Assembly: GCF_020911925.1 (NCBI RefSeq)
Contig: NZ_CP087134.1
Location: forward strand, 1,240,001-1,304,000
Direction of reading: 5' to 3'
Length of the DNA: 64,000 nucleotides
From: Flavobacterium cupriresistens
Lineage (GTDB): Bacteria > Bacteroidota > Bacteroidia > Flavobacteriales > Flavobacteriaceae
Shown: one piece after another, positions 60,541-64,000 of the stretch
Layout: each line of letters opens with the position of its first letter
Numbering within the stretch: the first letter of the stretch is position 1
Notes under the pieces: model-generated
The model's input: the letters and a program-made list of their open reading frames with translations, nothing else
Database searches by the model: none
What the model was told of the DNA's origin: nothing
Program-made: the position numbers and the translations under genes

Positions 60541-60705
60541 TTAACCACAAAACATGGAATACATACTTCTTGGATCTGTTTGGTTTGGAGCAGGCACTAC
60601 ATTTTCTGTACTGTTACCACCTATAATTAATCTAGCCTCTTCTGAGCTTAGTTCTATAATACTAGTTTTTTTTAATGCTAATTTTTTTAAGTTAAATTTT
60701 TTCAT
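60541..60705 (-). CDS. double-glycine leader peptide, putative RiPP precursor
   Basis: A 54-residue peptide. The leader MKKFNLKKLALKKTSIIELS runs on to SEEARLIIGG, the classic shape of Bacteroidota class I lanthipeptide and related precursor leaders (basic start, LS.EE...I.GG). The predicted core after GG is 24 residues (NSTENVVPAPNQTDPRSMYS plus MFCG) with several Ser/Thr and one Cys near the end. It has its own perfect terminator 16 bases downstream. It is divergent from the TPR-AraC regulator, with about 150 bases between them. No modification enzyme is adjacent. Its core is unlike those of the array at 63401. Confidence 0.75.
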   Translation of the reverse strand: MKKFNLKKLALKKTSIIELSSEEARLIIGGNSTENVVPAPNQTDPRSMYSMFCG

Positions 60706-60855: not shown

Positions 60856-62694
60856 ATGAATATGAATAGACTAAATAAGATGCTTGTCTTAATTTTATTA
60901 TTTATAGTCAATTTTACCTTTTCCCAAAATAAAATTGAAACTTATAAAGATTCGGTTAAAAGCCTTTTGTACAATAATCCGAGTAAAGCAAAATACTACT
61001 GCCATAAGTTATTAAAGTACGCTAAAACCAATGATTTAGTGGTTGAAGAGGCAAAATCGTATTGTTTCCTGGCCGACTTAAGTGGCGCTTTAACTCAAAA
61101 AGACAGCGCTTTTTATTATTTTGACAAAGCAATTCAGAAAGCTGGTGCCATTGATAACGAAAAGCTGGAAATGGTTTTCAAAATCAATAAAGCGAACTAT
61201 TTATTTAATGAATTTGATTTCCAGGAAGCTTTAACTCTTTATGAAGAATGTGTTACTTTATCTAAAAAACTCAATGATGTCGGGGCTTACAATTACATTT
61301 CGATAAAAAGAGGCAGCATTGCGTATGAATTAGAAAGGTATCAGGAGGCTTTAAAAATATATAAAGAAAATTTAAACAAGGAAGGTTTTAGTAACGTAAG
61401 TAAACTAGATATAAAACTGGGTTTAGTAAAAACGTATATTAATTTAAATAAGCAGGACTCCGCCTATGTTTTTATAAAAAGTGGTATTCAGGAATCGCAA
61501 AAAAACCATCTAAAAGAGCATGAAATCCACTTTTTGTCCCAATTGGGCTTAATTTACATCGATAAAAAGGACTTTGTAAATGCTAAATTAACCTTCGATA
61601 AGGCCCTAAATATTGCTCAGAAAATTGAGAGCAATAATTTGATTACAGAAACAAATATCAGGATCTCTAAATTGTATTCGCTTCAGAAAGATTACGATAA
61701 AGCGATAATGCTCTTAAAATCGATTCTTAGTACGGAGCAAACATCAAAAATACCCACAGAAAACCTGTCTGAAATATATTACTTATTGGCAGAGAACTAT
61801 AAATTCATCGAAAATTTTTCAGAATCCAATTATTATTATGGTCAGTTTATTGAAAAGTCGAAGAAAATAGGGGAAAAAAGAATTGAAGCTGTCGATCATT
61901 TGCATAAAATAGACATCTCAGAAAGTAAAGAGAGAGAGAAAACACAAGAGCATCAAAAATGGATACTGCTTGGTTCAACAACCTTTTTAATTCTTCTGTT
62001 TATTGGTTATTATATGAAACGAAGAAAAGAGGGCATACAAAATCAAGTCAAATTTGAGGAGTTACTACTCAAAATCAAAGACTTCGAGCATCAAAATCCA
62101 AAAACGGCTGATGAAAGCCAGCAAAAACACACTTTGGCAGGTGATGATGAAATCACAGAGCCGGATCTTTTAGAAGAAGAATCTGAAACAGAATTCATTC
62201 CAAGCAACATTGTTACTATAAATACTACTTCTAATGATGATTTAATAGCAGAGGATGAATCCATCGCAGACCACAATGGCTCTGACATAGAAGAACCAAC
62301 GGGAAGTAATTTTATTATCAAAGATGAAACAAGAGTAGAAATTTTAGATAAGCTAATTAAACTCGAAGAGAAGAGATTGTTCCTGAGACAAGACTTTACT
62401 CTGCATAATGTTGCGAAACGATTAAAGACAAACACCGCTTATTTGTCTAAAATTGTCAATAGTGAATTGGACAAAAACTTCAGTTCGTATGTAAATGAGT
62501 TAAGGATTAACTATATTATTATTGAATTAAAGAATAATGCTAAGCTAAGATCGTATTCAATTAATGCAATTGCGGAAGAAATTGGGTATAAAAGTCCGGA
62601 GTCTTTTACTAAATATTTTAAGGTTGCAACCGGAATTAGCCCCTCTATTTATATAAAAAAGATAAATCAGATGAAAGAAAGTGAAAACAAGTAG
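60856..62694 (+). CDS. membrane-anchored TPR regulator with AraC-type DNA-binding domain
   Basis: A 612-residue protein. A signal or anchor segment (MLVLILLFIVNFTFSQ) is followed by about eight TPR-like helical pairs (about 25-350; for example FDFQEALTLYEECVTLSKKL and KDYDKAIMLLKSIL). One membrane helix (WILLGSTTFLILLFIGYYM, about 367-386) precedes an acidic linker (about 400-470). The AraC helix-turn-helix pair is at about 505-605 (LHNVAKRLKTNTAYLSKIVN and SINAIAEEIGYKSPESFTKY). TPRs would face the periplasm and the DNA-binding domain the cytoplasm. Its place between two precursor loci suggests it regulates them; that is inference. Confidence 0.85.
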   Translation: MNMNRLNKMLVLILLFIVNFTFSQNKIETYKDSVKSLLYNNPSKAKYYCHKLLKYAKTNDLVVEEAKSYCFLADLSGALTQKDSAFYYFDKAIQKAGAIDNEKLEMVFKINKANYLFNEFDFQEALTLYEECVTLSKKLNDVGAYNYISIKRGSIAYELERYQEALKIYKENLNKEGFSNVSKLDIKLGLVKTYINLNKQDSAYVFIKSGIQESQKNHLKEHEIHFLSQLGLIYIDKKDFVNAKLTFDKALNIAQKIESNNLITETNIRISKLYSLQKDYDKAIMLLKSILSTEQTSKIPTENLSEIYYLLAENYKFIENFSESNYYYGQFIEKSKKIGEKRIEAVDHLHKIDISESKEREKTQEHQKWILLGSTTFLILLFIGYYMKRRKEGIQNQVKFEELLLKIKDFEHQNPKTADESQQKHTLAGDDEITEPDLLEEESETEFIPSNIVTINTTSNDDLIAEDESIADHNGSDIEEPTGSNFIIKDETRVEILDKLIKLEEKRLFLRQDFTLHNVAKRLKTNTAYLSKIVNSELDKNFSSYVNELRINYIIIELKNNAKLRSYSINAIAEEIGYKSPESFTKYFKVATGISPSIYIKKINQMKESENK

Positions 62695-62737
62695 ATCGCT
62701 TGTAAGTTCCTGAAAAGCAATAAATTACAACAAAAAA

Positions 62738-62775
62738 AGAACCCCCTTATTTTATAAATATGGGGGTTTTTGATT
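62738..62775 (+). terminator. terminator of the TPR-AraC gene
   Basis: The AACCCCC / GGGGGTT stem has an AU-rich loop, followed by TTTTGATTTTTTT. Confidence 0.88.
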
Positions 62776-62834
62776 TTTTTTACAGGAAAAAAAGATTTTA
62801 CTTTGTCTCAGAATTAATCCGAATATCAGATTAA

Positions 62835-62930
62835 CTTCTACTTTGGTTTTGAAGGGTGGCGAAAATGAAAATGAGTAGCCACTTCAAACCAAAAAAATAA
62901 AACAGAGTGTGGAGACTCTGTTTTATAAGG
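62835..62930 (+). other. hairpin plus orphan terminator, possible small RNA
   Basis: TTTGGTTTTGAAGGGTGGC pairs imperfectly with GCCACTTCAAACCAAA (62841-62892). It is followed by a separate terminator-like stem AAAACAGAGT / ACTCTGTTTT (62899-62924) although the gene to the left already has its own terminator. An unlinked terminator implies a transcript starting in 62775-62840. No sizeable ORF is present. Confidence 0.4.
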
Positions 62931-62950
62931 TGTTTTAACAAAAACGTAAT

Positions 62951-63061
62951 ACCTAACAAGTTGCCAGAAATTACTTCTACAAAAGTAGAAAAAAAGTGTC
63001 TTTAATTAAAACTTTTTTTCACTATTTCTAAAAGTACTTCTACACTGCATACTTGTTAGCT
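62951..63061. repeat. palindromic element with 9-12-bp inverted ends (MITE-like)
   Basis: CTAACAAGT (62953-62961) and ACTTGTTAG (63051-63059) are perfect inverted ends, extended inward by TGC / GCA with one bulge. Inside are TTCTAC-AAAA-GTAGAA and AAAAAAAGT / ACTTTTTTT hairpins. A target-site duplication is not clear. Confidence 0.5.
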
Positions 63062-63074
63062 TAAAAAAAAAATT

Positions 63075-63212
63075 ATGACTAACAGTAATCGACCGAGCGA
63101 AAAACGGCTCAGCAAAAATTCAATTTTCAAGATTGAAGATAATGATGATGGTAAACCATCCAAATCGTTATTCTTTAAATTAAAAAAACGAATTTCAAAA
63201 CTTTTTAAATAA
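63075..63212 (+). CDS. 45-residue basic peptide, hypothetical
   Basis: The ORF reads MTNSNRPSEKRLSKNSIFKI and continues through an acidic EDNDDG patch to a basic, amphipathic end (SLFFKLKKRISKLFK). There is no GG leader motif and no match that I recognise. It starts 13 bases after the palindromic element and precedes the precursor array by 188 bases. Residue use (Lys/Ser/Phe) fits local genes, but with 45 codons chance cannot be excluded. Confidence 0.4.
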   Translation: MTNSNRPSEKRLSKNSIFKIEDNDDGKPSKSLFFKLKKRISKLFK

Positions 63213-63400
63213 GCCAGAATTTTTTCCGGACTAATTTACGATTGCCTATTTAGGATACAATCAGGAATTCAGGTTGCAATAACTGATATCGAAATTCTTG
63301 TTGTTCCGTAAAGCGAGCTGTAATTTTTTGGACAATTCGATGTGCCTTTATTTTAATCAGTGATTTTAAAAAGACTATTAATTATTAAATCTTAACAAAA

Positions 63401-63586
63401 ATGAAAAAGCAAAACCAAACCAAATTGGCTTTCAACAAAGCTAATGTTACAGAATTAAACGTTCAACAATTAAGAAGTGTGAACGGTGGCGTAAAAGATG
63501 ACCTTGATCTTGATACCAAACCTGGTTCCGGTTGTATCTGTGATCCTATTTTGACAAAATTAACGGTTATTAAAAATCAATTCTAA
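63401..63586 (+). CDS. GG-leader RiPP precursor 1 (class I lanthipeptide-like)
   Basis: A 61-residue peptide. The leader is MKKQNQTKLAFNKANVTELN followed by VQQLRSVNGG; the AFNKA.V.ELN..QL..VNGG pattern is that of Bacteroidota class I lanthipeptide precursors. The core (31-61) is VKDDLDLDTKPGSGCICDPI plus LTKLTVIKNQF, with Cys 45 and 47, Ser 43 and Thr 39, 52 and 55 as possible ring partners. The stop overlaps the next ATG by one base (TAATG). No modification enzyme is in the window; it would lie to the right. Confidence 0.85.
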   Translation: MKKQNQTKLAFNKANVTELNVQQLRSVNGGVKDDLDLDTKPGSGCICDPILTKLTVIKNQF

Positions 63587-63777
63587 TGAAAAACGCAAAC
63601 CTAACGAACAAACTGTATTTTAAAAAATCGGATGTTACAGAATTAAACGTTCAACAATTAAGAAATGTGAATGGCGGTGTAATAACGGGACAAGATACCG
63701 ATACCAACCCAAATTCGGGCTGTATCTGTGATCCTATCTTAACAAAACTAACCGTTATTAAACCCTATCAATTCTAA
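63586..63777 (+). CDS. GG-leader RiPP precursor 2
   Basis: A 63-residue peptide. The leader ends LNVQQLRNVNGG (GG at 30-31). The core is VITGQDTDTNPNSGCICDPI plus LTKLTVIKPYQF, with Cys 46 and 48, Ser 44, and Thr 34, 38, 40, 53 and 56. It differs from precursor 1 mainly in the first ten core residues, while SGCICDPILTK is unchanged. One-base overlaps with both neighbours indicate translation by re-initiation along the array. Confidence 0.85.
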   Translation: MKNANLTNKLYFKKSDVTELNVQQLRNVNGGVITGQDTDTNPNSGCICDPILTKLTVIKPYQF

Positions 63778-63965
63778 TGAAAAACGTAAACCTAACGAAC
63801 AAACTGTATTTTAAAAAATCAGATGTTACAGAATTAAACGCTCAACAATTAAGAAGTGTTAACGGTGGCGTAATAACGGGACAAGATACCGATACGAACC
63901 CAAATTCGGGCTGTATTTGTGATCCTATCTTAACAAAAATAACAATCATTAAAAATCAATTCTAA
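63777..63965 (+). CDS. GG-leader RiPP precursor 3
   Basis: A 62-residue peptide nearly identical to precursor 2. Differences are in the leader (NVNLT, LNAQQLRSVNGG) and the core end (LTKITIIKNQF). The SGCICDP block is kept at Cys 46 and 48. Near identity at the DNA level with precursor 2 points to recent tandem duplication. Confidence 0.85.
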   Translation: MKNVNLTNKLYFKKSDVTELNAQQLRSVNGGVITGQDTDTNPNSGCICDPILTKITIIKNQF

Positions 63966-64000
63966 TGAAAAACATAAACCTAAACAACAAACTGTATTTT
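63965..64000 (+). CDS. GG-leader RiPP precursor 4, cut by right edge
   Basis: It starts with the same TAATG overlap and reads MKNINLNNKLYF, the beginning of the same leader, before the window ends. The array therefore has at least four members. Confidence 0.75.
   Translation, partial: MKNINLNNKLYF

Follow-up and report, generated by a model that had tools for sequence, protein, structure and literature searches.

A LanB and LtnJ-like dehydrogenase locus without LanC accompanies a large lanthipeptide-type precursor array in Flavobacterium cupriresistens

What is made from the run of small GG-leader genes at the right edge of the window, the 64,000-nucleotide stretch analysed here (C1:1240001-1304000 of the single 5.74-Mb contig of the Flavobacterium cupriresistens genome)? 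Three of these genes are complete within the window and a fourth begins there:

63401..63586, plus strand: precursor 1, 61 aa, core VKDDLDLDTKPGSGCICDPILTKLTVIKNQF, NF038153 32.5 bits
63586..63777, plus strand: precursor 2, 63 aa, core VITGQDTDTNPNSGCICDPILTKLTVIKPYQF, NF038153 32.8 bits, relatives found
63777..63965, plus strand: precursor 3, 62 aa, core VITGQDTDTNPNSGCICDPILTKITIIKNQF
63965..64000, plus strand: precursor 4, start only in the window (whole gene C1:1303965-1304135), core STILGGETCSGCCCGQTSITVLQQM

Open reading frame analysis confirmed three complete genes with TAATG junctions, as given in the first-pass annotation; stop and ATG overlap by one base between precursors 1 and 2, 2 and 3, and 3 and 4. 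The array is not a chance arrangement. The annotation had described at least four genes whose SGCICDP core does not vary. A fourth overlapping ATG is present, but the motif is carried by three genes, not four, because the core of precursor 4 reads SGCCCGQTS. Precursors 1-3 have leaders ending in VNGG and share the core segment SGCICDPILTK[LI]T[VI]IK, which is not invariant in relatives: SGCICDPIL occurs in poyangense and G183, but SGCFCVPVS in G179. Variation at the start of the core distinguishes gene 1 from genes 2 and 3 as described, but genes 2 and 3 are identical there. The leader had been likened to the class I lanthipeptide type, and this is supported: the two scanned window precursors exceed the curated cut-off of NF038153 (lant_leader_L1a, NCBIfam; 22 bits), as do all eight precursors scanned from the full set of 44. 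A search of precursor 2 against 5.8 billion proteins returned eight clusters, two of them marked as the window's own proteins; four of the other six are named, all as 'class I lanthipeptide' of Flavobacterium.

Beyond the window the array extends over 8.1 kb and comprises 44 intact GG-leader precursors, the last ending at C1:1311503 (a pattern count that agrees with the open reading frame list). These encode 20 distinct cores. The SGCICDP peptides are a minority (3/44) of a mixed set, in which the TSPTCLLVISYLLAKALD precursor stands beside Cys-free and SGCICDP precursors. Twenty-six precursors form near-identical tandem repeats of 157 bp each (C1:1307429-1311503) with the core TSPTCLLVIS[Y/F]LLAKALD, Tyr occupying the variable site in 18 copies and Phe in eight. 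Differences between copies fall on 22 of the 157 columns. Coding columns vary synonymously at 14 positions and non-synonymously at three; within the core the figures are nine and one, the latter being the Y/F site. The variation is mostly synonymous, so the copies are old enough to have diverged while the peptide was kept. An assembly artefact is unlikely, given the one-contig genome, the differences between copies and the tandem arrays found in relatives. Degenerate leaders also lie among intact precursors at C1:1305950-1306770 (by eye, for example after 1305951, 1306257 and 1306593) and may be signs of array birth and death.

The annotation had proposed reading the DNA to the right of the window for modification and export genes. 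Four genes of this kind follow the array:

C1:1311905-1313059: HlyD, after the array
C1:1313052-1315211: C39-peptidase ABC exporter, after HlyD
C1:1315230-1318364: LanB, full length, with both dehydratase domains (Lant_dehydr_N and Lant_dehydr_C)
C1:1318369-1319481: LtnJ-like dehydrogenase (LanJ), last gene of the locus

The annotation would have been refuted had the next 15 kb held no such gene; the exporter and LanB both start less than 12 kb past the right edge of the window. The 719-aa exporter combines PF03412, PF00664 and PF00005 in one protein, the PCAT architecture. No radical SAM protein is present among the four enzyme and export genes scanned, and the precursor leaders reach at best 19.7 bits on TIGR04149, the model for radical-SAM-modified RiPPs (cut-off 25). 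LanC-made rings are not borne out, the locus being without LanC. None was seen in the open reading frame list (by eye) downstream to about C1:1346000, in agreement with the genome-wide PF05147 search. The locus is real and broader than first noted; it is of lanthipeptide type and lacks LanC, one of the features by which that type is defined.

We examined LanC in 41 genomes, including 35 of the 50 LanB-positive genomes of the genus. Eleven carry the locus (the source genome G000, G183, G179, G186, G098, G299-G303 and G869), and in none of them does LanC lie within it. Four (G183, G179, G302 and G869) have no match anywhere in the genome, with completeness values of 100 for G183 and 99 for both G179 and G869. 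A LanC near the poyangense locus (G299:C1:671120) was ruled out: it lies on a contig of 1,214,728 bases, the locus on one of 697,101 bases. Among other LanB genomes of the genus, 18 have a LanC no more than about 4 kb from a LanB (G289, G103, G232, G125, G218, G042, G004, G195, G278, G061, G076, G217, G063, G175, G225, G121, G185 and G207), and LtnJ-like matches are absent from all of them.

The dehydratase of the locus is a LanB, not a LanM, and matches both PF04738 (406.9 bits) and PF14028 (215 bits), the glutamylation and elimination domains. Residues R793, R803, R805, E845, R848 and H998, whose catalytic roles we assume from work on NisB, are kept in 11/11 rows of its clade and in 10/10 LanC-adjacent rows. 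Dehydration is likely because the elimination-domain residues are kept. In a LanB tree of 38 rows (G869 left out), all 11 rows from loci of this type fall into one clade (100/100), which groups with the LanC-adjacent L021-L023 at 85/82 only. Loss of LanC would be the simple reading of this topology, short of proof. Another LanB of the source genome (L014/L016) falls in a second group (13 rows, 100/100), in most of which a stop separates the two LanB domains; eight of these 13 rows come from genomes without LanC and three from genomes with LanC elsewhere, and LanC lies about 10 kb off in L028 and 18 kb off in L043. This other LanB of the source genome (C1:5479066-5482661; L016:9066-12661) is split into 734 and 285 aa, has no LanC and stands behind another regulator-like gene.

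The dehydrogenase aligns end to end with LtnJ of lacticin 3147 (pMRC01; 34% identity, 165 bits). We take the pMRC01 protein to be LtnJ from its position; it is annotated there as a medium-chain dehydrogenase. LtnJ makes D-Ala. Across 11 sequences (nine cassette members, G049 and LtnJ) 50 of 400 columns are invariant, and the motifs GS-x-F-x-G, P(8x)G-x-P-x-N-x-x-S and I-x-N-C-x-G are common to the dehydrogenases and LtnJ. The best PDB match is partial, at 30 bits, and among NCBIfam models the highest score, 42 bits and far under the cut-off, is for a general alcohol dehydrogenase. Matches to the gene number five among 299 genus genomes (E<=1e-20), all five beside a LanB; two among 395 phylum genomes (G000 and G049); and two among 359 family genomes (G000 and G869, the latter of another genus). 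In G049, which has no LanC, the gene is next to a distant split LanB. The dehydrogenase is a LanJA homologue and probably a maker of D-amino acids.

From these genes, their order, homology and conservation, and from the absence of LanC from the locus, we infer a class I dehydratase-type RiPP locus that works without a cyclase and yields dehydrated or reduced, mostly linear D-residue peptides. We assign this reading a probability of roughly 0.6. The shared leader would bring the 44 precursors to one LanB, which would dehydrate core Ser and Thr; the LtnJ-like enzyme would then reduce some Dha and Dhb to D-Ala and D-Abu. The C39 domain of the exporter would cut after GG, the peptides leaving with the help of the HlyD adaptor. 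With no LanC encoded, the outcome would mostly be linear, hydrophobic peptides with D- or dehydro-residues, and the 26 tandem copies would boost TSPTCLLVIS[Y/F]LLAKALD, a dosage amplification of one core. Their role would probably be inter-bacterial antagonism. By analogy the locus may work like a D-residue lantibiotic pathway; we do not place it among class I lanthipeptides proper.

Core composition bears on this chemistry. Thr is more frequent than Ser across loci, which counts against the D-residue reading in that characterized LanJA enzymes mostly reduce Dha only, RodJA reducing both Dha and Dhb, according to the available part of PMC11519912. Alternating L/D, gramicidin-like cores were considered and dropped, as the 34 non-redundant cores without Cys show no excess of Ser/Thr pairs at a spacing of two (z 0.88). 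In these cores, spacings of 4, 5, 6 and 8 are mildly raised (z 2.0-2.5), and spacing 8 is raised across all 76 cores (z 3.46, 0.001 of 2000 shuffles); 20 such tests were made in total, and we deduce no structure from them.

Cysteine is the weakest point of the linear reading. It occurs in 32 of the 44 own precursors (26 with one, six with two or more, 12 with none) and in 42 of 76 non-redundant cores across relatives. Because it is kept in many cores, including those of the LanC-free G183, G179 and L050, it must have some role; enzyme-free thioethers, disulfides or metal binding are possible. The first of these leads to the strongest rival, in which the Cys-bearing peptides, including those of the window with CxC, are lanthipeptides formed without LanC, the thiol adding spontaneously or within LanB, and only the Cys-free peptides are simply dehydrated or reduced. 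The recurrence of Cys beside Ser/Thr (SGCxC, CTGCxC and TSPxC), again also in G183, G179 and L050, speaks for such rings. Against them, 12 of the 20 distinct own cores are without Cys, so no (methyl)lanthionine is possible within those peptides, and we regard this rival as unlikely.

A second rival keeps an ordinary class I lanthipeptide and has a distant LanC act in trans on the array. One or two LanC matches do lie elsewhere in 7/11 locus-bearing genomes (G000, G186, G098, G299, G300, G301 and G303), which also counts against the linear reading. The only PF05147 match of the source genome, however, lies 2.5 Mb from the locus in another cluster, fits the LanM C-terminus best and has as neighbour an LxmK-like kinase (below the LxmK model cut-off). 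With four of the 11 genomes free of any LanC match and many cores free of Cys, action in trans is improbable. The distant cluster itself (C1:3792051-3796856; L015:6051-10856) comprises the LanM-type LanC, the LxmK-like kinase and a 477-aa protein with C[VI]PT repeats at its end, and appears class V-like.

Export of largely unmodified peptides as class II-type bacteriocins or signals, with LanB and LanJ acting on few, is very improbable: a GG leader and a C39 exporter do suffice for class II bacteriocins, one of the eight precursors scanned scores narrowly above the cut-off of the double-glycine model TIGR01847 (15.9 versus 15.7 bits) and several match class II models below cut-off, but all eight scanned leaders exceed the lanthipeptide model cut-off and LanB directly follows the exporter in 12/12 loci.

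Four features precede the array:

60541..60705, minus strand: divergent 54-aa GG-leader peptide, tail TDPRSMYSMFCG, leader matches below cut-off
60856..62694, plus strand: 612-aa TPR - transmembrane - AraC-type (HTH_18) regulator, with Pfam TPR and HTH_18
62897..62926, no strand assigned: palindrome ATAAAACAGAGTGTGGAGACTCTGTTTTAT, upstream of the array
63075..63212, plus strand: conserved 45-aa open reading frame ahead of the array, C-terminus basic

The regulator has an N-terminal hydrophobic stretch, TPRs, one inner transmembrane stretch (both stretches by eye) and a C-terminal HTH. Homologues at E<=1e-40 occur in 5/299 genus genomes, the same five that have a close LanB. The divergent peptide is a candidate signal peptide or pheromone. 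Its tail type is found in 6/6 loci whose DNA covers this flank (the window, L046, L053, L056, L068 and L069; L054, with different flanks, is not counted), as PRSMYSMFC in four and as PRSIFTGRYC and PRTIFTTC in two, behind a linker of 8-21 aa. Two findings argue against a pheromone: a second regulator copy in G186 is accompanied by divergent GG peptides lacking a PRSMYSMFC-type tail, and so is the regulator of the source genome's second LanB locus. The TPR-AraC receptor would switch the array on, perhaps on sensing the divergent peptide.

By blastn the palindrome recurs in relatives and, within the source genome, ahead of the second precursor group (C1:1304327); roughly 150 bp of its flank is conserved upstream of both own groups. 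Among eight picked stretches, one pair is changed on both sides (terrae) and two have an arm mismatch. The palindrome is possibly an operator, or a structured leader RNA or RNA hairpin. No Rfam family reached gathering score over 62600-64000, and a known RNA upstream of the array was rejected on this ground. The 45-aa open reading frame, at the same place in L046, L053, L056, L068 and L069 (by eye), has no Pfam or NCBIfam match.

How general is this arrangement? We compared 12 loci: that of the source genome, G183, G179/L051, G186/L052, G098/L053, L046, L047, L048, L049, L050, L054 and L077 (L051 and L069 come from one genome, as do L052 and L068). The order HlyD-exporter-LanB is the same in all 12. 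An LtnJ-like gene follows LanB in nine; its absence from G183, L049 and L050, where only dehydrated peptides would therefore result, counts against the D-residue reading. The second genus (G869) has all four cassette genes, with a LanB identity of 60%. Tandem amplification recurs with other cores: SSPACYLVIS[F/Y]LIAKL in 12 copies (L047), TTPVCVGVIIGL... in 15 copies (L054) and TSPLC[IV]GVIIG... in G183; the Y/F alternation of the own repeat core reappears in L047 and L048. Six of nine named contigs stop no further than 5.6 kb upstream of LanB, which is what assemblies interrupted by repeats should show. NF038153 matches occur in 23/299 genus genomes, with at least 25 each in G000 and G186, 22 in G179, 19 in G183, five in G098 and at most nine in each of the remaining 18. 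By pattern the 12 stretches hold 104 distinct cores, a few of which are not precursors; the regular expression includes a few divergent GG peptides outside the source genome and omits degenerate leaders and some long-core open reading frames.

Together these loci would tentatively define a cyclase-free class I branch of the Flavobacteriaceae, in which LanB and LanJ edit Ser/Thr to D-Ala/D-Abu in large mixed sets of linear hydrophobic peptides with one core amplified up to 26-fold, and in which a secreted GG pheromone with a PRSMYSMFC tail is read by a periplasmic TPR-AraC receptor; we consider this fuller picture possible rather than probable. If such a branch is real, genome mining that is anchored on LanC and requires Cys would miss it. 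The 2020 survey PMC7268733, as described in its available part, found clusters through LanC and discarded Cys-free cores, and by that method would have missed this locus type. A search of open literature by title and start of abstract, a weak one with subscription papers outside its scope, found neither a LanC-less LanB-LanJ locus nor this array. If the reading is right, the locus offers LanB and LanJ as a compact system for making D-residue peptides, together with some 100 natural substrates.

The closest chemical parallels are lacticin 3147 (LtnM/LtnJ), rodencin (RodJA) and bicereucin, in which a dehydratase is followed by a LanJ reductase to give D-Ala or D-Abu; the lacticin locus also shares a peptidase-domain ABC exporter. 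Those systems use a class II LanM with a cyclase domain, whereas here a LanB without cyclase faces 44 precursors. Dehydration followed by reduction as a route to D-amino acids is ascribed primarily to class II, with one class V case, in the accessible text of PMC11519912, and a class I route to D-residues is only suggested in that of PMC7268733. The class I lanthipeptides of Bacteroidota (pinensins and the NF038153 set) share the leader family and LanB. The pinensin LanB is split (PMC7268733, available part), whereas that of this locus is unsplit; moreover, this locus is without LanC, four of 11 genomes having none anywhere, and adds an LtnJ-like reductase.

In breadth the array resembles the prochlorosins and synechococsins, in which one enzyme serves many precursors with diverse cores, ProcM having 29 substrates and SyncM 79 (from the part of PMC9872173 at hand). 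Those are class II systems that include a cyclase, whereas most precursors here are near-identical tandem copies and Cys is missing from many cores. The locus raises the question of what purpose 26 copies of one peptide gene serve. Identical precursor gene copies within one locus are also found for thurincin H, although that is a radical-SAM sactipeptide with three copies (PMC8172795, in the portion available), compared with 26 here.
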